A DNA stretch of 64,000 bases from the NCBI GenBank assembly GCA_902806085.1, contig CADCVH010000053.1, positions 1 through 64,000 of the forward strand, given 5' to 3'. The position numbers and the translations under genes were made by a program. This stretch comes from an uncultured Rubrobacteraceae bacterium (GTDB lineage Bacteria > Actinomycetota > Rubrobacteria > Rubrobacterales > Rubrobacteraceae). Shown piece after piece: positions 17,954-32,537 of the stretch. The notes beneath the pieces were generated by a model. That model was given only the letters and a program-made list of their open reading frames with translations. It searched no databases and was not told the origin of the DNA. Each line of letters begins with the position of its first letter. Position 1 is the stretch's first letter.

Positions 17954-19396
17954 GTGCATTACAGGCTGCGCACGGTCAGAGGTGGTAAGGCGCTGGAAAC
18001 CGCGGTTGGAACGGTCCTCTCGGGACGGTACGAGGTAAAGTGCACGCTCGGTTCGGGCGGGATGGCGGTCGTCTACAAGGCCCAGGACGCCATCCTCGGG
18101 AGATCCGTCGCGCTCAAAACGCTCCACCGTCACTACGCGGAGACGCCCTCTTTCCAGGCCCGTTTCCGGCAGGAGGCGCGGGCGATGGCCTCCCTAGACC
18201 ACGAGAACATAGTCAAGGTCTACGACATCTCCCAGGACGGCGAGGTGCCGTTTATCGTGGTGGAGTGCGTGGTCGGGAGGGACCTCGGCAAGCTCCTCGG
18301 CGGGCAGAACGGCGGTCGCCTGAGCGAGGCCTTCGTGAGGCGGCTGGCGGCGCAGCTCTTGCGGGCGCTTTCCTACGCCCACCGGCGCGGGATCATCCAC
18401 CGCGACATAAAGCCGTCGAACATCCTTCTCACCCCGGAAGGAACCGTCAAGGTGGCGGATTTCGGCATCGCGCGCATCATCGAGGAGGACGACCTCGCGG
18501 GCGGGGAGCCGGGCGAGATAGTCGGCAGCGCCCGCTACATGTCCCCAGAGCAGCTCCGGGGCGACGAGGCGACGCCCGAGAGCGACATCTACTCCGTGGG
18601 CGTCCTGCTCTACCACTGCCTGACCGGCCGCCCGCCCTTCTCCGGCGACGTCAAGAGCCTCGCCCGCCAGCACATGGGTGAGCAGCCCACCCCGCCGCGC
18701 CGGCTGAACAAGAAGATATCGCCGGGCATGGAGGCCGTGATCCTGAAGGCACTCGATAAGGACCCCGGGCGCCGCTACCACTCGGCGTCCGCGATGCTCG
18801 ACGACATGGAGATGGAGCCGCCCCCGGCGGCCTCGCGCGGGACGGCAGTCGCGAAGTCCTCTGGCCGACGGCACGGCGGACTGGTGCTGGCCGCGGCTCT
18901 CGCGCTGCTTCTCCTGTTCGGCGGGGGCGTCGCCCTGGCCTCCAGCTACGTGGGCCTGCCGCAGAACAGCGTCGAGAATGCCCTGAACCGTATCAGCCCC
19001 GTCGAGACGGACACCGCCGCGGCCCCCGATCCGCCGGAAGCTTCGCAAGGGACGGACTCCGAACCTCAGAACACGGACGGGGCCGAGGAAGATCCCGCCA
19101 ATACGGAGGGCGGCACGCAGCCCGAGGCCCCCGTATCGGAGACGGCCACCCGGAAAGAGCCCCAGAAGTCCCTCGTCCCGGTGCCGGACGTCACCGCCTA
19201 CTACGATTACTACGCGGCCGACGCCCTGGCGGCGAGCGGCTTCGACGTGGTGTTCGCACCCCGCGACTACAGGGAGGGCTTCGACGTTCGCGGCGTGACC
19301 TACGCAACCGAGCCCGCCGCTGGCACGCTCGCTCCCGAGGGCTCGACCGTGACGGTCTATGCCACGCCGCAGAACCTGCCGCAGCCGGTATTTTAG
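17954..19396 (+). CDS. PknB-type membrane Ser/Thr protein kinase with one PASTA-like domain
   Basis: This 480-residue Hanks-type kinase has a glycine loop LGSGGMAVVYKA (about 32-43) and catalytic Lys 55 in VALKTL. It also has HRDIKPSN with Asp 151, DFG Asp 169 and an activation loop ending in SARYMSPEQ. The kinase domain is followed by one transmembrane segment (about 308-331) and a Pro/Glu-rich extracellular linker. A single C-terminal PASTA-like repeat (about 395-475, VPVPDVTAYYDYYAADAL) follows. Such kinases sense wall fragments and control growth; one PASTA repeat is fewer than the usual three or four. The GTG at 17954 is the only early start and lacks a clear ribosome site. Confidence 0.9.
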   Translation: MHYRLRTVRGGKALETAVGTVLSGRYEVKCTLGSGGMAVVYKAQDAILGRSVALKTLHRHYAETPSFQARFRQEARAMASLDHENIVKVYDISQDGEVPFIVVECVVGRDLGKLLGGQNGGRLSEAFVRRLAAQLLRALSYAHRRGIIHRDIKPSNILLTPEGTVKVADFGIARIIEEDDLAGGEPGEIVGSARYMSPEQLRGDEATPESDIYSVGVLLYHCLTGRPPFSGDVKSLARQHMGEQPTPPRRLNKKISPGMEAVILKALDKDPGRRYHSASAMLDDMEMEPPPAASRGTAVAKSSGRRHGGLVLAAALALLLLFGGGVALASSYVGLPQNSVENALNRISPVETDTAAAPDPPEASQGTDSEPQNTDGAEEDPANTEGGTQPEAPVSETATRKEPQKSLVPVPDVTAYYDYYAADALAASGFDVVFAPRDYREGFDVRGVTYATEPAAGTLAPEGSTVTVYATPQNLPQPVF

Positions 19397-19453: not shown

Positions 19454-19972
19454 TTACGATCCTGCCCGGTACGCCTTGCTTCGGAGCGCGACGGTGTGGT
19501 GGAGCAGGAAGACGGCGACGGGGAGGGAGGCCGGGTCTTGCGGATCGAAGGTCGCCCTGTAGCGGCGGTTCGTCAGGCCGCCGGAGAGGCTGGCCGTCTC
19601 GTTGCCGGTGGAAGATACGGCCGTGGCCCTGTTGCGGAGCAGGGAGATGCGGGCCTCGTAGAGGTGGTCGCCTGAGCGTAGCGCCAGGTGCGTCTGGGAG
19701 CCGGCGGGCTCGGCGCTCAGGGTCTCGGTGCCGCCGGTCGTCATCGCGTAGCGGGTGCTTTCGGGCTGCTGGATCTCCGCCTCCAGGTCGCCGGCCCGGA
19801 GGCGTGTTCCCCCGGCCGCGTCCGTCAGGAGTTGGCCGAAGGTTTCGTTCCCGGGCGTGAGCAGGTCCAGCCCGGGGGAGACCAGGCCGCGGGCGCGGGC
19901 GGTGAAAGAGCCCCCGAGGGTCCGGGCCAGGTCTTCCCACGACGAGGCCGGGTTGTCTCCGCGACGATCCAT
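19454..19972 (-). CDS. Hypothetical protein (172 aa)
   Basis: I do not recognise the family. The product starts with MDRRGDNPASSWEDLARTLGG and has a long beta-type region of alternating polar and hydrophobic residues (TTGGTETLSAEPAGSQTHLALRSGDHLYEARISLLRN). It has no signal peptide or membrane segment. The frame ends in YRAGS at 19454, while the next frame carries GRIVKRPFYEDGAY to 19422, so a small frameshift near the 3' end is possible. It is convergent with the kinase gene. Confidence 0.6.
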   Translation of the reverse strand: MDRRGDNPASSWEDLARTLGGSFTARARGLVSPGLDLLTPGNETFGQLLTDAAGGTRLRAGDLEAEIQQPESTRYAMTTGGTETLSAEPAGSQTHLALRSGDHLYEARISLLRNRATAVSSTGNETASLSGGLTNRRYRATFDPQDPASLPVAVFLLHHTVALRSKAYRAGS

Positions 19973-20101: not shown

Positions 20102-20464
20102 ATGGAGCTACAGAACAAGGACGAGATACGCAACGAGATCCTGCAGACCTGGCTTCGCAGCGCCTGGGTCTACCCGTTCGAGGGTCCCGACGGAAAGAGC
20201 TACCTTCGCCTGACCCCGGGCGGGCGGCTCAAGATCCGGCGCAGGATCGGTGAGCTCGAAAAATCTCTGGGCGTCGAGGGGGAGGAGCTGGCAAGGCAGG
20301 AAGAGGCCGGCACCCTGCCCGTCGAGCGCGAGAAGTTGGAGCTCGCCATCATGGTCCAGGCCTACGACTCCGAGCGCCGGTTCATCCAGAGCCAGGGCGG
20401 CGTCCTCGGCACCCCCGCCGTGAAGCTGCCGGAGGTCGAGGCGACGGAGAGCGAGGCCGGGTAG
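20102..20464 (+). CDS. Hypothetical protein (120 aa)
   Basis: This is a small, charged, mostly helical protein without known motifs; it has a central GRLKIRRRIGELEKSLGVEGEEL segment. The ATG at 20102 is preceded by GGAG at 4 bases. There is no signal peptide. It lies upstream of the first VanW gene but 255 bases away, so it is probably a separate unit. Confidence 0.6.
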   Translation: MELQNKDEIRNEILQTWLRSAWVYPFEGPDGKSYLRLTPGGRLKIRRRIGELEKSLGVEGEELARQEEAGTLPVEREKLELAIMVQAYDSERRFIQSQGGVLGTPAVKLPEVEATESEAG

Positions 20465-20718
20465 GAAGGCCGCTGTAGGCCGGGGCCGGCCGGGCGGCCA
20501 GATGTGGTGTGCCGATCTCCTGAGAAGTACGTCGGATGGTGGAAAATCCGGCGCCCGAAAGTGGCGGGTAACCCTTGCCCGTGATAGGCTCTTCGGGCGA
20601 TGCGTGCCCGCTCCCGGCGGGTCATCGCCGCGGAAGAGAGAGGGGGGACCTCTCCAGGAACGCGCAGCATTGGTGTTGTCGGGGTGTGCCGGAGTTCGCA
20701 CGCGGAGGGTACTGGGTC

Positions 20719-22527
20719 TTGAGCCTCATAAATCGGAAAAAGAGAGACAGACGAACGGGGAGCGGGTACGAGGGTTACCCTACCGGTTCAGGCACCACCG
20801 GCAGCCGCCGTTCGCGGCGCCGTAACAGCGTCGCGGGCCCGATCATCATCGTCTGTGCCCTCGTCGCCGTGTTGGTGGCCGCCGACTTCTGGATGAACTA
20901 CGGCAAGGTCCACCGCGGCGTGGAGGTAGGCAACGTCTCCCTGGGCGGCATGGAGCCGGCCGAGGCGCGGGAAGTGGTCAGGGAGCGGGCGCTCGGCCCG
21001 CTGCAGGAGATCGAGCTCAGCGGCCCCGACCGGTTCACCCGCAGCGCCGAGGAGCTCGGCGTCAACTTCCACATCGACGCCACCGTGGACAAGGCCTACG
21101 CCGTGGGCCGCGACGGGAACGTCCTCGAACGGCTGGGCGAGCGGCTGCGCGCGGCCTTTCCCGGCATCACGATAGACCCGAACATCGACTACCGCTCCGA
21201 CAGGGTCAAGGCCGAGGTGGGCGAGATAGCGTCCCAGGTCAACGCGCCTGCGCGGGACGCCACGGTGAAGGTCGTCGGCTCCGAGGTCGAGGTCGCCGAG
21301 TCCCGCGAGGGCTACAGGCTGAACGCCGAGGACACGATGGCCAGCTTGGACGAGGCCATCGACGGCATGACCGGTACCGCCAGGCTCCGCGGCGACGTGC
21401 TCGCGCCCCGGATCACCACCGCCGAGGCCGAGGCCGCCGCCGAGAAGGCCCAAGGCGCCGTTGCCCAGCAGCTCGTCTTCGAGCACCAGGACAAGAACTG
21501 GACCGTCTCCCCGGCCGACGTGGGCGCGAGCCTCGACGTGGCGCCGAACGACGGCAAGCTCTCGGTAAGCCTCGACCGCGACCGCATGAGCGACCGCCTG
21601 GCCGCCGTCTACTCCGACCTTACCGTCAAGCCCAAGAACGCCTCCTACGACTTCGACGATTCCGGAAACGTCGTCGTCCTCGCCGCCCGCGACGGACGGT
21701 CCGTACAGTGGGAGAAACTCCTCGACTCCGTAGAGAACAACATCTTCGAGGGCAAGCGCGAGTACCAGGTAAACACCACCGTTCAGAAGCCCCGGTACAC
21801 CACCGCCGGCCTCGAAGCCAAAAAGCCGACCGAGCTTCTCGGCTCCTACAAGACCAACTACACCGCGACCACCGACCAGGGTGCCGAGCGCGCGGAGAAC
21901 CTCGAGATCGCCTCGGACGCCGTGAACGGCACGTTCGTCGCCCCTGGTGAGACCTTCTCCATGGTCCAGCACGTTCAGGACCTCGACTACAACGACGCGC
22001 ACGTCATCATAGACAGCGAAGAGGCCGTTGCCGAAGGCGGCGGTCTTTGTCAGGTCACATCCACGCTCTACAACGCGGTCCTCTATGCCGGCCTGCCGGT
22101 AGTGGAGCGCCAGCCCCATGATTCCCAGTTGCCCTACATCCGGCCCGGGATGGACGCGACCGTGTGGTACGGCGACAAGACGACGACGGTAGACGATACG
22201 GACATGAAGTTCAAGAACAACACCGACGGCTACGTGCTCCTCAGAGAGTACGTCTCTGACGACGGTTACATGTACGCTCAAGTCTATGGCGTGCCGAATA
22301 ACATAGAGGTGGAGATGTCCTCCAAGGAGGTCTGGATGACCGAAGACGCCTCCGAGTGGGTCACGTACTACACGAGGTACAAGGACGGCGAGGTCGAATA
22401 CAAGGACAGCTGGAACAGCGAGTACAGCGCCCTCTACGACGACAAGGGCAAGAAGATCCCGACGCCCAAGGTCGAGATCGCCGAGGTCGACGGAAGCTAC
22501 TACGGGTTCGACTTTAGTAGCCAGTAG
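20719..22527 (+). CDS. VanW-family cell-envelope protein, first copy
   Basis: This protein of about 602 residues has a basic N-terminus and one transmembrane segment (about 35-57). Two PG_binding_4-like domains follow (GVEVGNVSLGGMEPAEA..., then a repeat), then a C-terminal VanW domain (about 369-530) with GGGLCQVTSTLYNA. It should be anchored in the membrane with the bulk outside, probably contacting peptidoglycan; VanW biochemistry is unknown. The TTG at 20719 is preferred over upstream frame extensions because GGAGGG stands 10 bases before it. A paralogue is at 27746. A bidirectional terminator follows. Confidence 0.9.
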   Translation: MSLINRKKRDRRTGSGYEGYPTGSGTTGSRRSRRRNSVAGPIIIVCALVAVLVAADFWMNYGKVHRGVEVGNVSLGGMEPAEAREVVRERALGPLQEIELSGPDRFTRSAEELGVNFHIDATVDKAYAVGRDGNVLERLGERLRAAFPGITIDPNIDYRSDRVKAEVGEIASQVNAPARDATVKVVGSEVEVAESREGYRLNAEDTMASLDEAIDGMTGTARLRGDVLAPRITTAEAEAAAEKAQGAVAQQLVFEHQDKNWTVSPADVGASLDVAPNDGKLSVSLDRDRMSDRLAAVYSDLTVKPKNASYDFDDSGNVVVLAARDGRSVQWEKLLDSVENNIFEGKREYQVNTTVQKPRYTTAGLEAKKPTELLGSYKTNYTATTDQGAERAENLEIASDAVNGTFVAPGETFSMVQHVQDLDYNDAHVIIDSEEAVAEGGGLCQVTSTLYNAVLYAGLPVVERQPHDSQLPYIRPGMDATVWYGDKTTTVDDTDMKFKNNTDGYVLLREYVSDDGYMYAQVYGVPNNIEVEMSSKEVWMTEDASEWVTYYTRYKDGEVEYKDSWNSEYSALYDDKGKKIPTPKVEIAEVDGSYYGFDFSSQ

Positions 22528-22621: not shown

Positions 22622-23953
22622 CTAGCTCGTTAGCGCCTTCTGACCGTTCAGCACGTCCTCGGGCTTGCCGCCGGCGCGGAGCAGGACGGCCTCGCCGTCG
22701 AGGAGGAGCACCTCGGCGGGGGAGGGATGGCTGAGGAAGCCCAAGTTGGAGGCGGAGTAGCCGTAGGCGCCGCTGTAGAAGACGCCTATGAGGTCGCCGA
22801 CCTCGGGCTCGGCCAGCGGGATGTTGTTGCCGAACGAGTCGAGCGGGGTGCAGCAGGGGCCGGCGACGGCCACGCCCTCCTCGGGGACGGCCCCGTCCAT
22901 GCGGGTGAGGTTCAGGAGCGGGTAGGCCTTGCGGAAGACCTGGCCCATGTTGCCGGTCGCGGTGAGGTGGTGGTTCATGCCGCCGTCGGTGACGGCGAAG
23001 GTCTTGCCGCGGGTCTCCTTGACGTCCACGACGCGCGTTACGTAGAGGCCGGCGTCGGCGACGAGGTAGCGCCCGAGCTCGAAGAGGAAGCGGCAACCCT
23101 CCAGGCGCGGGTCGGAGCGGTAGCTAGAGACGATCTCGCGCAGGCCCTCGCCGAAGCGGTCGAGGTCGAACTCGCTCGTCTTCTCGAAGTAGGGGACGCC
23201 GAAGCCGCCGCCGAAGTCGATCATCTCGAGCGGGTGCCCCGCGTGGTCGGCCGCCTCAAGCGCGATGTCGAAGATGTTGCGGCAGTGCTCCAGCAGGGGG
23301 TCCACCTCGAAGACCTGGGTCGCCGTGTAGACGTGGACGCCACGCAAGACGAGGCTCTCGTGGGAGAGGACCTTCGTAACGGCCTCGGCGAGGTCGGCCT
23401 GGTCGATGCCGAACTGGCCGACCGTGCCGCCCATGCGCATCCCGCTCCCCATAAGCTGGGCCGACGGGTTGATCCTGATCCCCACGCCGATGGTCTTTCC
23501 GGCTTCTTCGGCTATGGCGGCCAGCCGCTCTATCTCGCCGAGCGACTCGACGTTGACGGCGTGGATGCCCTCGTCGACGGACATCCTGAGCTCCTCGTTC
23601 GTCTTGGCGGGACCCGCGAAGACGATGTCCTCCGGCGCGAAGCCCGCCGCCCGGGCCACGATCAACTCCCCGGAAGAGGCGACCTCGCCGCCGGCGCCGG
23701 CCCTGGCTATGAGCGAGCACACGGCGAGGTTCGGGTTTGCCTTCAGGGAGTAGGCGACTTCGGTGCCGAGGGCCTCCCGGACGCGTTGGACGCGGTCTGA
23801 GATCATGTTAGCGTGGTAGAGGTAGAACGGCGAGCCGTAGCGCTCCGCTATCTCCGAAACCGGGACGCCGTCGGGGGCGAACTCTCCATTCTCGGCGCCG
23901 GAGCCGCCGAAGCGGGCCGCCAGGTCGCGGGCCTTATCCGTTTGTGTAAGCAT
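22622..23953 (-). CDS. PLP-dependent decarboxylase, LysA/ornithine-decarboxylase fold
   Basis: This 443-residue fold-type III decarboxylase has the PLP lysine in AYSLKANPN, the glycine loop FGGGFGVPY and ELGRYLVADAG. The active-site cysteine segment is GPCCTPLDSFG. It resembles decarboxylases annotated as exosortase-A associated rather than classic LysA. It is the last gene of a four-gene operon and overlaps the ligase by 20 bases. The likely role is decarboxylation of an amino acid, either free or loaded on the neighbouring carrier protein (inference). The substrate cannot be read from the sequence. Confidence 0.85.
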   Translation of the reverse strand: MLTQTDKARDLAARFGGSGAENGEFAPDGVPVSEIAERYGSPFYLYHANMISDRVQRVREALGTEVAYSLKANPNLAVCSLIARAGAGGEVASSGELIVARAAGFAPEDIVFAGPAKTNEELRMSVDEGIHAVNVESLGEIERLAAIAEEAGKTIGVGIRINPSAQLMGSGMRMGGTVGQFGIDQADLAEAVTKVLSHESLVLRGVHVYTATQVFEVDPLLEHCRNIFDIALEAADHAGHPLEMIDFGGGFGVPYFEKTSEFDLDRFGEGLREIVSSYRSDPRLEGCRFLFELGRYLVADAGLYVTRVVDVKETRGKTFAVTDGGMNHHLTATGNMGQVFRKAYPLLNLTRMDGAVPEEGVAVAGPCCTPLDSFGNNIPLAEPEVGDLIGVFYSGAYGYSASNLGFLSHPSPAEVLLLDGEAVLLRAGGKPEDVLNGQKALTS

Positions 23954-25520
23954 TGCTGATCCCCTTGCGGTCTATCTTGCCGTTCGCGTTCTTCGGGAGC
24001 TCGTCCCTGACGATGATCTCCTTCGGGATCATGTACGGCGGGCCGTTCTTTATGGCGTACTCCCTGACGGAGTCTATCGCCCCGTCGCCGCCGCCGTCCT
24101 TCAGGGAGATCACGGCCACGACGTCGTGGCCGACGGCGGGGTTCTCGACCCCGAAGGCGCAAGCCTCGTGCACGAGCCCGGACCCTAAGAGGAGGTTCTC
24201 GACCTCCTCGGGGCTCAGGCGGTAGCCCTGGTTCTTTATCATGGCGTCCTCGCGCCCGAGAAAGTACAGGTATCCTTCCTCGTCGCGCGTGACGGTGTCC
24301 CCCGAATAGACCACCCGCTCGACGCCGAGCAGCTCGGGCGGGGCGAGCGGGTTCGGGCGGTAGGCCTTGGCCGTGGCCTCCTCGTTACCCCAGTAGCCCA
24401 TCGCCACGGTGGGGCCGCGGTGGACGAGCTCGCCTGGTTCGCCCGGGGCCGCCTCCTTGCCCTCCTTGGTTATGACCATGATCTCGGTATCGGGGATGGC
24501 CTTGCCGATGCAGTTGCCCTGCTCGGGCGAGGAGCGGTGGATCTCCCGCGGGTCGAGGTACGTCGAGCGGAACGCCTCCGTGAGGCCGTACATCAGGTAG
24601 ATCTTCGTCCCCGCGGGCTCCAGCAGGTTCCTCAGCTCGTCGAGGTTTGCCTGCGGGATGCGTCCGCCGGTGTTGGCGAGGTAGCGCAGGTGGGCCATCG
24701 GGTTCTCGCGGAGAGACTTGGCGCCGCGAAGCAGCAACGCCCAGAGCGGCGGGACGCCCGTAACACCTGTGATCTCGTGCCTGCGCAGCCCCTTCAAAAG
24801 ATCCCCCGGCAGCCTGGAACGCAGCAGGTACAGCGTCGCCCCGACCCGCAGGGACGTCGTGAACTGGCTCATCCCGGCGTCGAAGTTCAGGGGCAACGCC
24901 GAGAGGATGCGGTCTTGTGGCGTGTTCTCCAGGTACGTCGAGACGATCTGGGCCCCGACGACGACGTTGCGCTGGCTCGTCGCCACACCTTTTGGCATGC
25001 CCGTCGAGCCCGACGTGTAGAGGATCGTCCCGAGGTCGATCTCGGAGACCGCGCGGTCCTCTTTGAGGCCATCGCCCTTGAGGGCTTCGGCGACGTCCAC
25101 GTAGGACTTCGCGGCGTTGCCTTCGGGCTTCTCGCCCCTGTAGAACGCGGTCTCGACGGTCTTGGGCCGGAGCTCGTCGAGCTTGCCCGTGTCCCCGACC
25201 ATGACGCGGATGTCGCAGTCCGCGGCCAGGTACTCGATCTGGGGCGCCTTGAAGAGCGGGTTGACGTTGACGTAGGCCGCCCCGATGCGCGACGCGGCGA
25301 GCATCGAGACGATGGCCTCCCACGACTTGTCTACGAGCACGCCGACCCGGTCGCCCTTGTTTACGCCCGCGTCCACGAGGGCCGCCCCTAGAGAGCTGCT
25401 CTCGCGCTCCAGGTCTTCGTAAGAGTATTCGGCGTCGCCGTCCACGACGGCGGCCTTTCTGGGGTCTCGTTCGAGGGAGTTGTGGAGAAGGTCGTGGAGG
25501 GTGAATTCCGGGCGGGGCAT
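23934..25520 (-). CDS. AMP-forming acyl/aminoacyl ligase, exosortase-A-associated type
   Basis: This 528-residue ANL-family adenylating enzyme has the P-loop YTSGSTGMPKGV and the A5-like MYGLTEAFRSTYL. Further motifs are the A7/A8 segments YSGDTV and GREDAMIKNQGYRLSPEEVE, and catalytic Lys in NANGKIDRK. The YGLTEAFRSTYL region matches my memory of the acyl-CoA ligases annotated as exosortase-A associated. Its ATG shares one base with the stop of the carrier-protein gene (TGATG), so the two are made together. The likely reaction is activating a carboxylic or amino acid and loading it onto that carrier. The substrate is unknown. Confidence 0.88.
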   Translation of the reverse strand: MPRPEFTLHDLLHNSLERDPRKAAVVDGDAEYSYEDLERESSSLGAALVDAGVNKGDRVGVLVDKSWEAIVSMLAASRIGAAYVNVNPLFKAPQIEYLAADCDIRVMVGDTGKLDELRPKTVETAFYRGEKPEGNAAKSYVDVAEALKGDGLKEDRAVSEIDLGTILYTSGSTGMPKGVATSQRNVVVGAQIVSTYLENTPQDRILSALPLNFDAGMSQFTTSLRVGATLYLLRSRLPGDLLKGLRRHEITGVTGVPPLWALLLRGAKSLRENPMAHLRYLANTGGRIPQANLDELRNLLEPAGTKIYLMYGLTEAFRSTYLDPREIHRSSPEQGNCIGKAIPDTEIMVITKEGKEAAPGEPGELVHRGPTVAMGYWGNEEATAKAYRPNPLAPPELLGVERVVYSGDTVTRDEEGYLYFLGREDAMIKNQGYRLSPEEVENLLLGSGLVHEACAFGVENPAVGHDVVAVISLKDGGGDGAIDSVREYAIKNGPPYMIPKEIIVRDELPKNANGKIDRKGISNAYTNG

Positions 25521-25771
25521 CAGGCGGCCTTGCCCTCCACCAGCGTGGCGATGGCGTCGACGGAGCCGAAGTTCTCCTCATCGAACTCGTCGTCCTCCAC
25601 GGTGATACCGAACTCGTCTTCCAGGAAGGTGACGAGCTCGACCGTCTGCAGGGAGGTCATGACGCCGTTGTCTATGAGGGGCTCGTCGTTGGCGACGTCG
25701 CGCCCGCCCGTCACGTTCTCCTGCAGCCAGCCGCGTACCGCGGACCTCGCGTCCCCGTTGTTTGCAACCAT
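25520..25771 (-). CDS. Stand-alone acyl/peptidyl carrier protein
   Basis: This is an 83-residue four-helix carrier protein. The phosphopantetheine serine is in NGVMTSLQTVEL; the usual DSL is TSL here, a known tolerated variant. The helix III region FLEDEFGITVEDDEF is typical of DltC/PCP-like carriers. The RBS (GGAGATAG) is close before the ATG at 25771. It lies between the GNAT gene and the ligase, 13 bases after the first and overlapping the second by one base. Confidence 0.9.
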   Translation of the reverse strand: MVANNGDARSAVRGWLQENVTGGRDVANDEPLIDNGVMTSLQTVELVTFLEDEFGITVEDDEFDEENFGSVDAIATLVEGKAA

Positions 25772-25783
25772 CTCTCTATCTCC

Positions 25784-26971
25784 TTATCTGAGCCAGAACG
25801 TCGCTTCGCCGTCGCCGATGTTATACGACCAGCGGGCCACCGACGTCGCCCGCTCGTGCTGCGTCCCGTCAGCGAACTTCGTCATGAGCGTGTTGCGCCT
25901 GTCGTTGCGGTGGAAAAAACCGAGCCGCGCCAGGTCGGCCGACCTTGGCGCGGTCGGCGACTCGGCGAACCTGTACCGGACGATGTGGGACCCGGCCTCC
26001 CGCAGCAGCCGCACGCCCCCCCGGAGCAGCGCCCGCGCCACGTCGCGGCGCCCCGGGAGCGTGACAAGATCCAGGATGTAGCCGTCCAGGCCCCCCGAGA
26101 CCGTCCTGACCACGGCGTAGCCCGCCAGCCCGCCGGCCTCCCGCACCGCGAGCACCGTGACGGGCCACTGGGGCGAGCCGGGGCCGTAGCGCCACCTGAG
26201 GAACGCCGCGTCCTTCTCGACCACGCACGAGACGCCCGCGGACACCTTCTCGAAGAAGGCGTCGAAGGATTCGTCGAAGTGCTGAACGGGCTCCACCTTC
26301 GGGCCCGGCGCGAAGGCGCTGCCCAAAGCGCCGTCCACCAGGCGCAGCCCGCCGTTCAGCACGCCCTTGACCGGGCCCGGAATCGGGGCGCGGGGCCGGG
26401 GCGGCGAGTAGCCCTCGGGGTCCGGGGGTTGCTCCATCCCCTCCGGGGACGGACGCCCGTTCGGGGAGCCCCGGCCCGCCGGGGCCAGGACGCGCTCCAG
26501 CCGCGCCGGCATGGGCAGCCTCGCGACGTTCAGGAGCTTGGCCGCGTACCGGAGCTGGCCGGCGTCCACAGCGCCGAATTTGGACTGGACCCCGATCACC
26601 TCCGGCACCATGTCCAGCGAGACGCAGTTGTCGCAGGTGGCGAAGAACTTACGCATGAGCATGATGGCCTGGAACCCGTAGTCCGGGTGGCCCATGTAAT
26701 CCCCCGGCGAGTGCGCGACGACCCTGCGGCCGTTTACCCTGTAGTACAGCGGCGTCGCCGCCAGGTGCCCGACTATCTCCCCGTCCTCGGTCGCCGCGAC
26801 CCACCGGTGCGCCTCGCCCGCCAGCGGGTGGGTCCCGAGCCACCGGTAGACGGCGTCGTAGAAGTCCATCTCCCTCACCTCGGGAAGGTACGGGAACGCG
26901 CGGACGCGCAGCTCGCCGACGCCCCTGGCGTCGCCCTCCTCGAACGGCCTGACCTTCGCCTTCTTCGCCAT
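25784..26971 (-). CDS. Large GNAT-like acetyltransferase, probably double-domain
   Basis: This 395-residue protein has a GNAT-like N-terminal half (VRPFEEGDARGVGELRVRAF; WVAATEDGEIVGHLAATPL) and a second half with WRYGPGSPQWPVTVLAVREAGGLAGYAVVRT and a GxRDVARALLRGG motif. A proline-rich linker joins them (about 180-215). It may acylate the amine made by the downstream enzymes or transfer the carrier-bound group (inference). It is the first gene of the intact operon, with the FemA-type remnant just upstream. Confidence 0.75.
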   Translation of the reverse strand: MAKKAKVRPFEEGDARGVGELRVRAFPYLPEVREMDFYDAVYRWLGTHPLAGEAHRWVAATEDGEIVGHLAATPLYYRVNGRRVVAHSPGDYMGHPDYGFQAIMLMRKFFATCDNCVSLDMVPEVIGVQSKFGAVDAGQLRYAAKLLNVARLPMPARLERVLAPAGRGSPNGRPSPEGMEQPPDPEGYSPPRPRAPIPGPVKGVLNGGLRLVDGALGSAFAPGPKVEPVQHFDESFDAFFEKVSAGVSCVVEKDAAFLRWRYGPGSPQWPVTVLAVREAGGLAGYAVVRTVSGGLDGYILDLVTLPGRRDVARALLRGGVRLLREAGSHIVRYRFAESPTAPRSADLARLGFFHRNDRRNTLMTKFADGTQHERATSVARWSYNIGDGEATFWLR

Positions 26972-27192
26972 CTAAAAGATCGTTTCGGGCGTCTCTTGGC
27001 GGCGGGGCCGCGGGGTCAAGGCGATCATAGTCCGGGCTCCATCATCTCCGTCCCCCTCCAGGTCTCGACGCAAGGTTTCTCTCTTCGGCAGGGTTTGCCA
27101 CACGATCGAATTCAAGGGCTAGAGTGTAAATGAGGCGCACCGCAAAATCCAAGCCGGGAGCGGGCCCACCGGTCGCCGGCCGGGGGCCGCCC

Positions 27193-27420
27193 TTGGTAGT
27201 AGATGTCCCCCTTAAGCTTCTGGTGGAGCCGGTAGTACACGGGCTCGGCCGCGGTTCCACAGCGCGGCGCGCAGCGGCCGGACCGGCAGGTCGAGGCAGC
27301 CGAGAAACTCGGTGACCTCGCCCCCGAAGCCGGACTTGAACTTGTAGGCGTCGTGCAGGGGGTGGTCCTCGTTGTCGAGTTGGCCCGGAGGGGGACGGCC
27401 ACCATGTCGTAGTACACGCC
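27193..27420 (-). pseudogene. FemA/FemX-type aminoacyl- or glycyltransferase remnant
   Basis: The C-terminal part of a FemAB protein can be pieced together on the minus strand: VYYDMVAVP, then in another frame GQLDNEDHPLHDAYKFKSGFGG and CLDLPVRPLRAALW. Back in the first frame it continues AEPVYYRLHQKLKGD. YKFKSGFGG is the hallmark of the family. The first frame change can be explained by loss of one C in the run in GTCCCCCTCC; the second needs an extra base near TGGAACC. The N-terminal two thirds is missing. FemAB proteins add amino acids to lipid II, and FemAB-like proteins also occur in exosortase-type polysaccharide loci. Confidence 0.7.
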
Positions 27421-27745
27421 GCCGCGCCGCGTGGCCCAGCGCCACCTCGGTTGCGCGACGGGTGGACGGAGCAAGCGCAGTCTAGGGAGCGGGCCCAACC
27501 GGGTCAAGGTCCAAAAAGCGTACATATGCGGTACGGAGGGCTCGGCTGCAACAGCATGTTGTGGCCCGTCGCGCCGGGGCGGGCGGCCGTTACGTATGTG
27601 GGATCGTGCCCGCACGGAAGGCCGTTGAGCAGATTTCGCGCCGGAACTTGAAGGTTTGGTGGGTTGCCCCGATAATTAGCGCCTGCGCGTCGCCGTTGTT
27701 TCGCGAAAAGGCGGCGCGGGGTCGCGCTGCAGGAGGGGCGAACGC
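27421..27745. other. Gene-free stretch upstream of the second VanW gene
   Basis: Apart from the end of the FemA-type remnant, no homologous coding segment is visible. It should contain the promoter of the VanW gene, but no clear boxes are seen. Confidence 0.35.
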
Positions 27746-29215
27746 TTGAAGGAAATAAGCAAGAAAGGCGGCCCGGGGGCCACCCGGAAGTTCGGCCGTG
27801 ATCGGTCGAAGGCTAACGAGAGGCCGCCGCGGGCCAGCCGGCCGCGTGGCCGGAAGTCGCGTAACTACGCCTTGAGGCGCGGGCTGGCGGTCGCGGCCGT
27901 GGCGGCCGGCGTCCTTGTGGTCGGCTTCGTGGCCCTGGCCCTCTTCTCCGGGGACGACGGCATCCAGCGCGGCGTCCGGATCGGGGACGTCGACGTCGGC
28001 GGTATGAGCAGGGGCGAGGCCCGCGCGGCCGTGGAACGGAACGCCGCCGGGACCTTCGAGGAGATCTCCTTCGGAAAGGGCCCTGACGCCCTCACCGTGG
28101 GGGGCGACAAGCTCGGCGTAGAGGTAAACGCCGAGGCGGCCGTGGACGAGGCGTACTCCGTCGGGCGCGGCGGCGGGCCTTTGCAGAAGATCTCGAACTC
28201 CTTCGGCTCCTCCTTCGGCGGTACCCAGGTCGACCTCGAGGCCAGCTACGACGAGCAGGCCGCCCGCGGCGTCCTCGACGGGCTGGCCGAAGACTTCGAC
28301 CGCCAACCGCAGGACGCCACCTTCAGCGTCACCGATAACGGCGGCGTCCAGGTGAAGGAGGCGGAGAACGGGCGGGTGCTCGACAAGGAGGCGACCCTGG
28401 CGAACCTCGATGGGGCGCTGGGGAACATGAGCGGGCGGGTGCCCCTGGCGGAGGGCCCGGTCCCCAAGCCGGAGATCACAACCGCCGAGATCCAGGCGAG
28501 CAAGCCGGAGAAGGTCATCGGGGAGTACCAGACGGACTTTCGCTGGGACTCGAACCCCAACCGCAAGGAGAACATGAAGCTCGCGGCGGGCGCCGTGAAC
28601 AACACCGTCCTCGGGCCGGGCGAGACCTTCTCGTTCAACGATCTGGCCTCCTCCCTGGAATACAAGGAGGCGAAGACCTTCTCCGACGGGGGCGTTGGCA
28701 TCGCCAACGGGGGCGGGCTCTGCCAGGTCTCCTCGACGCTGTACATGGCGGCCCAGTACGCGGGCCTGGACATCGTCGAGCGCCACCCGCACTACGCGGT
28801 CCTGCCGTACATCAAGCCGGGTTTCGACGCGACGGTGTGGTTCGGCGACGAGTACGGCTACGGCGTGCAGGACATGAAGTTCGAGAACTCCACCGACGCG
28901 CCCATCCTTATCCGCGAGTGGGTCGACGAGAAGGGCTTCCTGAACGCCCAGATCCTCGGCCAGCCGACCGGCAAGGAGGTCGAGATGAGCACGGAGAAGA
29001 TCTTCGAGGACACCACCCGCGGCATCCGGTGGGACACCTACAAGAAGGTCACCGAGAACGGCGAGGTGACCTACGACGACAGGATCCACACGTACACCTA
29101 CAGCTACAACCCGCCCCCGCCGGAAGACGGGCCCCACTACGACACGGCCGCCCCGCGGGTGGCCGGCTGGTCGGACCCGGGTAACACCACCGGCTGGGCC
29201 GAAGTCCCCGAGTAA
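27746..29215 (+). CDS. VanW-family cell-envelope protein, second copy
   Basis: This 489-residue protein has a highly basic N-terminus, one transmembrane segment (about 48-70) and a single PG_binding_4-like domain. A VanW domain follows (about 249-415) with NGGGLCQVSSTLYMAAQYAGL. The C-terminus is proline-rich and ends in GNTTGWAEVPE. The TTG start at 27746 has a perfect AGGAGG 9 bases upstream. It is shorter than the copy at 20719, lacking one PG_binding_4 repeat. The beta-lactamase-like gene 45 bases downstream is probably co-transcribed, suggesting a wall-related role. Confidence 0.9.
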   Translation: MKEISKKGGPGATRKFGRDRSKANERPPRASRPRGRKSRNYALRRGLAVAAVAAGVLVVGFVALALFSGDDGIQRGVRIGDVDVGGMSRGEARAAVERNAAGTFEEISFGKGPDALTVGGDKLGVEVNAEAAVDEAYSVGRGGGPLQKISNSFGSSFGGTQVDLEASYDEQAARGVLDGLAEDFDRQPQDATFSVTDNGGVQVKEAENGRVLDKEATLANLDGALGNMSGRVPLAEGPVPKPEITTAEIQASKPEKVIGEYQTDFRWDSNPNRKENMKLAAGAVNNTVLGPGETFSFNDLASSLEYKEAKTFSDGGVGIANGGGLCQVSSTLYMAAQYAGLDIVERHPHYAVLPYIKPGFDATVWFGDEYGYGVQDMKFENSTDAPILIREWVDEKGFLNAQILGQPTGKEVEMSTEKIFEDTTRGIRWDTYKKVTENGEVTYDDRIHTYTYSYNPPPPEDGPHYDTAAPRVAGWSDPGNTTGWAEVPE

Positions 29216-29260: not shown

Positions 29261-30769
29261 TTGAACGGGCTTCCGCGCCAAAAGAGGCCCGCCTCGCGCA
29301 TCGCGGCGCGGCGTAAGCGTCGTCGGCGCAGGCTCGGGGCCCTGGTCCTCGTCGTCGTCGTCGCCGTCGGCGGCGTGTTCCTCGTGGGCCAACTGCTGGG
29401 AGAGACCCCTTCCGCCGGCCTCTCTCCCAGGGCGGACAACGATCCCCGGTCGCAGCCCAGGGGGGATTCCCCCTCCGAACCCCGCGAAGGGGGCCAGGGG
29501 GCGAAGGGCGGGGCGAAGCAACCCCCACCCGAAGAGCCCCCACCCGAAGAGCCCCCGCCCGACCCCGACCAGAAGACCCCCGAGGCCGCGGCCTTCGTTG
29601 CGGTGGCCCCGGAATTTCCCGGGGTGGAGAAGGGGAACGTCGAGGCCGTGTACAGGAGCAGGATGGACCCGTCGTGGGCCTCCGTCCGGTTCTCCCCCGA
29701 GGGCGAGAACAAGGACTTCGTCGTCTTCTCGCACAAGGAGGGAGAGACGTGGCGGGCGGAGAAGTCCGTCCGCGCCGACGAGCCCAACTACCCCAAAAAC
29801 GACGTGGTCCCGCTCGTGGGCGTCCCCAGGGACCTGCTCGACTACCTCTACGAAGAGAACCTCTTCGCCGCCCAGGTGCCCGAACCCAGTCGGGAGGAGA
29901 TCGGTGGCCTGCCCGACGTCGGGCCCGCGGAGAAGCCGCCGGTCGAGACGACGATGGACGGCGTACCGGAGGGCGACCGCAAGCGGGTGGAGGAGGTCGT
30001 CGGCAAGCTCGAAGAGAGGGTGAAGGGCTACGACGGGGTCGCGGGCGTCTACGTGCGGGACCTCGAAGGGGGCTTCGGCTACGGGGTGCGCGCCGACGAG
30101 ACGTTCTTCTCGGCCTCGATCATCAAGGTCCCCGTTATGGTCGCCGTCTACCGCAAGGTCGAGAAGGGCGACTTGAGCTTCTCCCAGCCCGTCGAGCTGA
30201 AGGAAGAGGACTGGGCCGCGGGGGCCGGCTGGCTGCAGTGGGAGAAGGCGGGGACAAGTCAGACGGTCGGCGACCTCCTGCTCCTCATGATGACCCAGTC
30301 GGACAACGTCGCCACGAACGCCCTCACGCGCATGGTCGGGGGCAGGGACCACGTCAACGACGTCGCCCGGTCCCTCGGGGCGGAGGACACCCTCCTCTAC
30401 CAGAAGGTCAGCAGCGAGCGGGGCGCCGTGCCCGGGCTCGACAACAGGACCACCCCGCGCGACGTGGCGACCATGATGCAGAAGATAGCCGACGACGAGG
30501 CTGCGAGCGAGAAGAGCTGCGGGTACATGATCGACCTCATGCGCACCAACGAGCTCGACTGGTGGCTCGACGCCGGCCTCCCCGACGACGCGGACGCCGC
30601 CAACAAGGCCGGCTGGCTCTACCAGGTATACGGCGACGCGGGCGTAGTCGAGCACGACGGCCACCGCTACACCGTCGCCATACTCAGCAAACACGGCTCG
30701 GCCACCGTCGACGAAGGCGCCGTTCTCATAGAAGACCTCTCCCGCATCGCCTGGGAATCTAGGCCCTAG
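29261..30769 (+). CDS. Membrane-anchored class A beta-lactamase-like serine hydrolase
   Basis: This 502-residue protein has an arginine-rich start, one transmembrane segment (about 25-46) and a low-complexity linker with tandem PPPEE repeats. A middle domain of unknown type is followed by a penicillin-recognising domain (about 245-500). The active-site motifs are complete: SIIK at 286-289, SDN at 347-349 and KAG at 449-451. The family includes beta-lactamases and D,D-peptidase-like proteins. The anchored extracellular placement and envelope neighbours favour a wall role over antibiotic resistance, but this is inference. It starts at TTG 29261. Confidence 0.85.
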   Translation: MNGLPRQKRPASRIAARRKRRRRRLGALVLVVVVAVGGVFLVGQLLGETPSAGLSPRADNDPRSQPRGDSPSEPREGGQGAKGGAKQPPPEEPPPEEPPPDPDQKTPEAAAFVAVAPEFPGVEKGNVEAVYRSRMDPSWASVRFSPEGENKDFVVFSHKEGETWRAEKSVRADEPNYPKNDVVPLVGVPRDLLDYLYEENLFAAQVPEPSREEIGGLPDVGPAEKPPVETTMDGVPEGDRKRVEEVVGKLEERVKGYDGVAGVYVRDLEGGFGYGVRADETFFSASIIKVPVMVAVYRKVEKGDLSFSQPVELKEEDWAAGAGWLQWEKAGTSQTVGDLLLLMMTQSDNVATNALTRMVGGRDHVNDVARSLGAEDTLLYQKVSSERGAVPGLDNRTTPRDVATMMQKIADDEAASEKSCGYMIDLMRTNELDWWLDAGLPDDADAANKAGWLYQVYGDAGVVEHDGHRYTVAILSKHGSATVDEGAVLIEDLSRIAWESRP

Positions 30770-30968: not shown

Positions 30969-32537
30969 CTAAGCCCTGCGGCGCCTGAGGAGTCCGGCCA
31001 CGGACTTCAGTTCTTCCGTGCGTAGCAGGAACGCGGCGCCGAGGTAGGCGGCCAGGGAGGCGCCTCCTGCGGCCGTGAGGACGAGGAGGCGCCCGGTGAA
31101 GTCGTCGCCGGTGCCGAGGAGGGTCGTGCCGGCGACGGCCACGGCGTACATGACGGCGCCGGCGGCCAGGATCTTGGCGAGGGAGATGAGAACGCGGCGG
31201 CCGTCGATGCGCCCGATCTCCTTCCTGGTTGCGGCGAGGGCGAGCGCGGCGAGCGCGGCGTAGGCGATGGAGAGGGCCAGCACGACGCCCGTGGCCTCGA
31301 AGAAGTAGGCCAGAGCGTAGGCGAGCGCCGCGTAGACGGCGAAGATGCCGACGTTCAGGAGGGCCGGGGTCTTCGTGTTCTGGCGGGAGTAGAAGGCCCG
31401 GACGAGAAAGAAGTACGCGGAGTAGCCGGGAAGGCCCACGGCGTACGCGACGAGCAGGGTGGCGACTATTCCGGTGTCCTGCGCCCCGAACTCGCCGCGC
31501 TGGTAGAGGAGGCCGACGATGGGTTCCGCGAGCACGATCAGGCCGACCGTGGAAGGCACCACCACGAAGACCATCGTTCTGAGGCCGAAGGAGAGCGTCT
31601 CCCTGTAGCCTTCGACGTCCTCGCGGGAGTGCCTCTCGGAGAGATCGGGCATCAGGGCCGTCGCTATGGCTACCACGAAGATGCCGTACGGTAGGGAGAA
31701 TACGGTGAACGCGTAGGTAAGCTCCGCGTACCGTTGGAAACCGGTCGCCAGGCTGGCCGCCAGGAGTTGGAAGGCCACGGACGCCGCCACGAGCACCACC
31801 ATCGGCCCGGCGAGCTTTGCGGTAGGGAGCAGGGCCGGGTGCCCGACCTGCGGGCGCGGCCTGTAGCCGAGGGCGAGCAGCGTGGGTATCAGCGCGAGCG
31901 CCATTACCGTAACACCGATCGTTACCCCAAAGGCGAGGACGTAGAGGGCCAGGCTCCTGTCGCCCTCCTCCAGAAAGGCGTAGGCGGCGAAGGAGCAGAT
32001 GATGATCAGGTTGTTCAGCACGGGCGCGAAGGTCGGCAAAAAGAAGCGCCGGTGGGCCTGGAGCACCCCGGTCGCGATGGTGGTTACACCGTAGAAGAGC
32101 ATCTGCACGGCGAAGACGCGGAAAAAGAACACCGCGAGCTCCGTGGTCTGCCTGGCGTCGGCGGGTGAGATGTCCGCGGAGGGGCTCAAGCCCACGACCA
32201 GGGCCACGAGGGGGCCGGCGAAGACGAAGCCGAGGAGGGCCAGAAGCGCCATCAGCGGGAGCACCAGCGTGATCAGGGCGTTCGTCAGGCGGCGGGCGTC
32301 CTCCTCGCCGTGGCTCGTGATGCGGTCTACCAGGACCGGGATGAAGATCGAGTACAGGATGCCGCCCAGGAAGAGCTCGTAGATCAGGCTCGGCAGGAGC
32401 ACGGCGAGGGCGTAGGCGTCCGCCACCACGGCCACGCCGAGGACGGCGCCCTGCACCGCGATGCGCACGTAGCCCGTCGCCCGCGAGAGGACCGTCGCCG
32501 CGGAGATGGAGAGCATCGACCGGAGGACGCCGGTCAT
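30969..32537 (-). CDS. murJ: Lipid II flippase MurJ
   Basis: This 522-residue polytopic protein is of the MVF/MOP superfamily with about 14 hydrophobic segments. It starts with the family signature MSISAATVLSRATGYVR and has ALMPDLSE and LVRAFYSRQNTKTP, typical of MurJ. It moves lipid-linked peptidoglycan precursors across the inner membrane. The ATG at 32537 is used; the flanking frame upstream has no homology. It is convergent with the beta-lactamase-like gene, and an amino-acid ABC importer lies upstream on the same strand. Confidence 0.92.
   Translation of the reverse strand: MTGVLRSMLSISAATVLSRATGYVRIAVQGAVLGVAVVADAYALAVLLPSLIYELFLGGILYSIFIPVLVDRITSHGEEDARRLTNALITLVLPLMALLALLGFVFAGPLVALVVGLSPSADISPADARQTTELAVFFFRVFAVQMLFYGVTTIATGVLQAHRRFFLPTFAPVLNNLIIICSFAAYAFLEEGDRSLALYVLAFGVTIGVTVMALALIPTLLALGYRPRPQVGHPALLPTAKLAGPMVVLVAASVAFQLLAASLATGFQRYAELTYAFTVFSLPYGIFVVAIATALMPDLSERHSREDVEGYRETLSFGLRTMVFVVVPSTVGLIVLAEPIVGLLYQRGEFGAQDTGIVATLLVAYAVGLPGYSAYFFLVRAFYSRQNTKTPALLNVGIFAVYAALAYALAYFFEATGVVLALSIAYAALAALALAATRKEIGRIDGRRVLISLAKILAAGAVMYAVAVAGTTLLGTGDDFTGRLLVLTAAGGASLAAYLGAAFLLRTEELKSVAGLLRRRRA

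Follow-up and report, generated by a model that had tools for sequence, protein, structure and literature searches.

What might a carrier protein, an amino-acid ligase and a decarboxylase that resemble exosortase-associated families be doing in a bacterium in which no exosortase is detected? This question is raised by a tight four-gene operon on the minus strand (22622–26971) of the window, by which we mean the whole 64,000-nucleotide stretch analysed here, which lies on contig C53 of the 4.4 Mb genome (G000) of an uncultured Rubrobacteraceae bacterium. The operon encodes a tandem-GNAT protein (25784–26971, 395 residues), a stand-alone carrier protein (25520–25771, 83 residues), an adenosine monophosphate (AMP)-forming ligase (23934–25520, 528 residues) and a fold-III decarboxylase dependent on pyridoxal phosphate (PLP; 22622–23953, 443 residues). 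An earlier note on this DNA had named these four families, as matches to the GNAT, PP-binding, TIGR03098 and TIGR03099 profiles now bear out. It had also called all four genes tightly overlapping; all four are where it placed them, but only three overlap, the decarboxylase and ligase genes by 20 bases and the carrier stop and ligase start within a shared TGATG, while the GNAT gene is set 12 bases upstream of the carrier gene, across a gap.

Our best explanation is that the operon makes an omega-amino acyl group and delivers it to the cell wall, an account that, taken as a whole, falls a little short of an even call. It is built on gene order, protein families, pocket residues, conservation, cell-wall neighbours and the remnant of a FemAB gene, all observed in the sequence, from which we infer substrate, order of steps, donor and acceptor. 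The ligase would take an acidic amino acid, be it aspartate, glutamate or something closely related, adenylate its side-chain carboxyl and load the residue onto the pantetheine arm of the carrier, where the PLP decarboxylase would strip the free alpha-carboxyl to leave a beta-alanyl- or 4-aminobutyryl-carrier. The tandem GNAT, in some species aided or followed by a FemAB protein, would then move the omega-amino acyl group to a cell-wall precursor and attach it to an amine there, most probably that of the stem L-lysine in peptidoglycan.

The ligase scores 567.7 bits with TIGR03098 (ligase_PEP_1), slightly below the cut-off of 592.35, and an orthologue at locus L078 reaches 594 bits, above it. 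Among matches to the ligase pocket segment VinN ranks first, and Asp214 and Arg318 of the operon ligase align with VinN Asp230 and Arg331. Both residues are invariant in the ligases of this type, encoded in a trio with a carrier and a decarboxylase, from Rubrobacteraceae, Aureimonas, Sinorhizobium, Shinella and Rahnella; Arg318 is absent from the three other ligases that we compared, two annotated as DltA and one an acyl ligase. The alignment suggests that Asp214 binds the amino group, as its counterpart does in enzymes that adenylate amino acids, while VinN Arg331 presumably holds the free carboxylate of the substrate. The pocket appears to favour loading of an acidic amino acid by way of the side-chain carboxyl, as does the chemistry: once the alpha-carboxyl is tied up in the bond to the carrier, no carboxylate is left for an alpha-decarboxylase; side-chain loading of an acidic amino acid would leave an omega-amino acyl group instead. 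The substrate is likely to be aspartate, glutamate or a close relative, and the pocket does not choose between aspartate and glutamate. VinN itself activates 3-methylaspartate, and the VinN/VinL/VinO pathway needs thioester formation before decarboxylation (PMC11284099). The carrier matches PP-binding at 25.8 bits, and its predicted phosphopantetheine serine, residue 40 within TSLQ, is invariant in 8/8 sequences, in agreement with the stand-alone carrier and TSL serine site described earlier. Its nearest solved relatives are peptidyl and aminoacyl carriers, and the genome encodes AcpS.

The decarboxylase scores 421.7 bits with TIGR03099 (dCO2ase_PEP1), below the curated cut-off of 478.45, and two orthologues score 410–424 bits. 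Its best relative in the PDB is BtrK, a glutamyl-[BtrI carrier] decarboxylase, at 281 bits, whereas LysA-type structures reach at most 186 (about 95 bits less). It carries the motifs GPCCTPLD and FLSHP, in contrast to GPVCESGD and YNSRP in the genome's own LysA, encoded on contig C83. Since BtrK is the best match, the LysA motifs are absent and LysA proper lies elsewhere, and with a CTPxD motif and a carrier gene at the same locus, the operon decarboxylase is a BtrK/TIGR03099-type enzyme, with predicted activity on an aminoacyl-carrier. On this evidence, it seems quite likely that an acidic amino acid is decarboxylated while on the carrier. The earlier note had proposed that an amino acid is loaded, decarboxylated and transferred to an envelope polymer; BtrK as nearest decarboxylase and VinN as nearest pocket support the logic of loading, decarboxylation and transfer, with an envelope polymer as a candidate acceptor, except that an amino acid loaded by its alpha-carboxyl could not be decarboxylated at that position.

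Some relatives of Rubrobacter from soil and marine settings share the operon. Its type of decarboxylase was found in 24/39 Rubrobacteraceae genomes, full-length copies scoring above 700 bits and far over LysA-type proteins. Where we read its surroundings, the ligase gene is adjacent, and carrier and GNAT genes are then present wherever the contig continues. The ratio of nonsynonymous to synonymous substitution (dN/dS) is about 0.1 for carrier, ligase and decarboxylase and 0.27–0.40 for the faster-evolving GNAT. Recurrence in many Rubrobacteraceae together with low dN/dS argues that the operon is no chance assembly.

In most genomes the locus is framed by the same genes as in the window: two VanW/PG_binding_4 genes (20575–22527 and 27746–29215, both plus strand), a class A beta-lactamase-like gene (Beta-lactamase2; 29261–30769, plus strand) and the gene for the lipid II flippase MurJ (30969–32537, minus strand; PF03023, 275 bits). 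MurJ has different neighbours in operon-free relatives. Together with FemAB in relatives, these neighbours point to peptidoglycan, and an acceptor in the envelope is somewhat favoured. Farther out, a serine/threonine protein kinase gene (17954–19396, cluster c8) is kept near the block in several relatives, and several Rubrobacteraceae retain, next to the VanW gene, two small proteins that match nothing in Pfam (19454–19972 and 20102–20464, clusters c9 and c10). Some genomes of genus g3 also encode, near the operon and beside a gene resembling sulfatases and lipoteichoic acid (LTA) synthases, a protein of about 900 residues that looks like an AMP-ligase, a carrier and a PlsC-like acyltransferase in one chain (L071:1290-4013, L074:15623-18328).

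Which protein would carry out the transfer? The GNAT protein has only generic GNAT matches in Pfam. Its AlphaFold2 model (predicted local distance difference test score 83.7) contains two GNAT domains, and a fold search placed N-myristoyltransferases and tandem GNATs on top (Z about 20–21), with FemABX not among the matches listed. Likeness of fold does not by itself reveal function, but N-acylation from a pantetheine thioester is common among GNAT-fold enzymes. The GNAT is kept with the carrier in every complete locus read, whereas FemAB is variable. The GNAT is thus the better candidate for a carrier-dependent transferase, with FemAB as an optional addition; we regard transfer by the GNAT as fairly likely. 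Our searches for this protein covered the host phylum (296 genomes) and a plasmid collection; in the former it was confined to Rubrobacteraceae, in the latter to a Rubrobacter tropicus plasmid.

One operon-bearing genome (G006, operon at L070, no FemAB match) is almost certainly R. tropicus SCSIO 52909, a cultured species, and its GNAT site is the same as on plasmid NZ_CP045120.1. Extra tandem-GNAT copies lie away from the operon on the R. tropicus chromosome and plasmid (L082, L083, L084, L181), one of them plasmid-borne, and some adjoin class E sortase, VanW and sulfatase-like genes. These copies may work without a carrier, ligase and decarboxylase of their own, or may share those of the operon. 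Our search of literature naming R. tropicus found no cell-wall data.

Upstream of the GNAT gene lies what is left of a FemAB gene (27196–27441, minus strand), its C-terminal ~80 residues in two frames, with the N-terminal ~300 residues gone. Searches by tblastn with the intact operon FemAB of relatives recover it at E values down to 2e-18, and 60 C-terminal residues read across frames score 23.9 bits with PF02388 (E 2.2e-5; cut-off 24); hand-read queries of the remnant gave no NCBIfam match. The dead FemA-type gene that the earlier note reported is thus real, and the comparison of neighbourhoods that it proposed yields intact copies in or beside the operon in relatives (G005, G010, G011, G017, G022, G023, G284, G303 and locus L010), in three of them (G011, G017, G022) upstream of a GNAT copy, in the same place as the remnant. 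The transfer step that the note took to be lost need not be, as the GNAT is always kept. In one Rubrobacter metagenome-assembled genome (MAG), three intact FemAB and two GNAT copies surround a single operon (L010:7098-16803), an arrangement that could serve transfer of several residues.

We classed FemAB proteins by similarity as conventional FemX or operon-type. Conventional FemX is found, one each, in 13/13 reliably operon-free genomes (G009, G012, G013, G016, G018, G019, G020, G021, G024, G063, G135, G264, G300) and in three of the 24 operon genomes; operon-type FemAB occurs in 14 of these 24, and eight (G000, the present genome, G001–G004, G006, G014, G015) gave no FemAB match. Several of the eight are incomplete assemblies, G000 and G006 being nearly complete. 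In fragmented MAGs, contig ends cut through operon or FemAB genes (L079; G008:C637, G008:C240), and part of the apparent FemAB losses in MAGs may be due to gaps in assembly. Two apparently operon-free genomes (G007, G301) were left uncounted because MurJ is missing too, so that the operon seems to be missing there through gaps in the assemblies.

Nothing indicates that operon genomes have switched to another stem diamino acid: all 30 MurE proteins read (L101–L130) have a TTDDAY or TTDDSY loop and none has DNPR, in operon-bearing and operon-free genomes alike, so the stem residue is probably unchanged. These loops are in keeping with L-lysine rather than diaminopimelate, and the peptidoglycan of cultured Rubrobacterales is A3alpha, L-Lys<-L-Ala (PMC3035278). 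Fem ligases that depend on transfer RNA (tRNA) normally build the bridges made of glycine or L-amino acids, and ATP-grasp ligases those made of D-amino acids (PMC2922099). A peptidoglycan cross-bridge as the acceptor is conceivable here, if doubtful. Equally tentative is the idea that a carrier-based, tRNA-independent route, in which the GNAT would place beta-alanine or 4-aminobutyrate on the stem L-lysine, has replaced FemX in part of the Rubrobacteraceae.

Several observations weigh against delivery of an omega-amino acyl group to the wall as we describe it. VinN Lys330 corresponds to Phe317 in the operon ligase, so the acidic substrate may differ from that of VinN. VanW genes are also present elsewhere in the genomes of operon-free relatives. 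Alignment of GNAT and FemAB profiles with hhalign gave a probability of 0.2% and thus revealed no relation in sequence. Three operon genomes retain conventional FemX (G023, which also has operon-type FemAB, G243 and G305). On the MurE tree, the mutual exclusion of FemX and operon comes down to few independent changes, two of them on supported branches (sign test, p = 1), and for this reason we keep replacement of FemX as a hypothesis drawn from a suggestive but not phylogenetically significant pattern.

A glycan acceptor is also possible because elsewhere the trio sits in polysaccharide loci. The same chemistry could then decorate amino sugars with the omega-amino acyl group, whether in an envelope polysaccharide or in a polymer akin to teichoic acid, as it probably does where the trio lies in rhizobial polysaccharide loci. 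The carrier/ligase/decarboxylase trio occurs in polysaccharide regions of Sinorhizobium, Aureimonas and Shinella and in one Rahnella cluster; the Sinorhizobium and Aureimonas loci contain glycosyltransferases and polysaccharide deacetylases and a nearly identical ligase pocket, and sulfatase/LTA-synthase-like genes lie near some GNAT paralogues. The conserved Rubrobacteraceae block, however, has no glycosyltransferase in the loci compared, and its constant partners are MurJ, VanW and beta-lactamase-like genes, with FemAB in many species. We consider a glycan acceptor unlikely, though it is the likeliest of the rival readings.

A different division of labour would have the decarboxylase turn a free basic amino acid into a diamine while ligase and carrier activate an acyl group, the GNAT joining both into a small secreted molecule or polyamine conjugate. 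Fold-III decarboxylases do include ornithine and lysine enzymes, and GNATs often acylate small amines. Yet the carrier-dependent BtrK is by far the best relative of the decarboxylase, the ligase retains the amino-acid residues Asp214 and Arg318, and the cell-wall neighbours are conserved, which makes a diamine product improbable.

The similarity of ligase and decarboxylase to exosortase A-associated families, pointed out in the earlier note, holds at the level of family, with both proteins under the cut-offs. These names and near-cut-off scores would suit an exosortase A system, either decayed or alternative in form, with the trio supplying a linker for PEP-CTERM proteins once they are released. 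We reject this reading as very improbable: a search with PF09721 found no exosortase in this genome, in line with the note's remark on the window, or in 24 other Rubrobacteraceae, and the trio is found outside exosortase loci too. The missing exosortase is not unusual given the rhizobial polysaccharide regions and Rahnella, and the name 'exosortase A-associated' is too narrow for a trio that also occurs outside such loci. Our literature search found no function reported for TIGR03098 or TIGR03099. Least credible of all is a plain LysA paralogue for lysine synthesis, or the organism's only LysA as the earlier note had allowed: the TIGR01048 score of 289 is slightly under the cut-off of 297.9, but the C83 LysA reaches 507.5 bits and has the diagnostic CESGD that the operon decarboxylase lacks.

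Delivery of an omega-amino acyl group to the cell wall thus remains our preferred account, and it has precedents in part. Trios of carrier, ligase and decarboxylase are already known from the pathways to butirosin and vicenistatin and also, though largely as a name, from exosortase A loci. In the butirosin pathway, which shares a carrier and a BtrK-type fold-III decarboxylase with the operon, glutamate is loaded on the carrier and then decarboxylated to 4-aminobutyryl-carrier. Its ligase BtrJ is an ATP-grasp enzyme, whereas the operon ligase is AMP-forming, and its target is an aminoglycoside rather than, as is probable here, the cell wall. The vicenistatin system (VinN/VinL/VinO) and FlvN-type starter units of fluvirucin likewise combine a stand-alone carrier, an AMP-forming ligase with the matching pocket Asp and Arg, and PLP-dependent decarboxylation on the carrier, which is predicted for the operon; the operon locus differs in having no polyketide synthase, second ligase (VinM) or acyltransferase (VinK), in the Lys-to-Phe exchange and in its tandem GNAT. 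The exosortase A-associated TIGR03098/TIGR03099 systems with their carrier have the same families, pocket code and gene trio, but the operon proteins score below both cut-offs and PF09721 detects no exosortase in the genome.

Closer to the wall, Dlt D-alanylation also uses a ligase and a carrier to feed a wall polymer, as we propose for the operon. It has no decarboxylase, however, no DltB or DltD is seen in the conserved block, and the operon ligase scores 178.6 bits with the DltA model NF003417, far below its cut-off of 476; we reject a Dlt reading. FemABX ligases, represented in the operon of many relatives by an intact FemAB, act on wall precursors with L-Lys as the operon would, but use aminoacyl-tRNA (PMC2922099) where the operon is proposed to use a carrier-protein thioester, and their profiles show no similarity to the GNAT. 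What looks new is the pairing of the trio with a family-specific tandem GNAT, FemAB and MurJ. If our account is correct, it would give a function to a widespread 'exosortase-associated' trio that has so far been mainly a name, walls could bear residues beyond those supplied by tRNA charging, and a third way to cross-bridges would stand beside the aminoacyl-tRNA-dependent Fem ligases and the ATP-grasp ligases.

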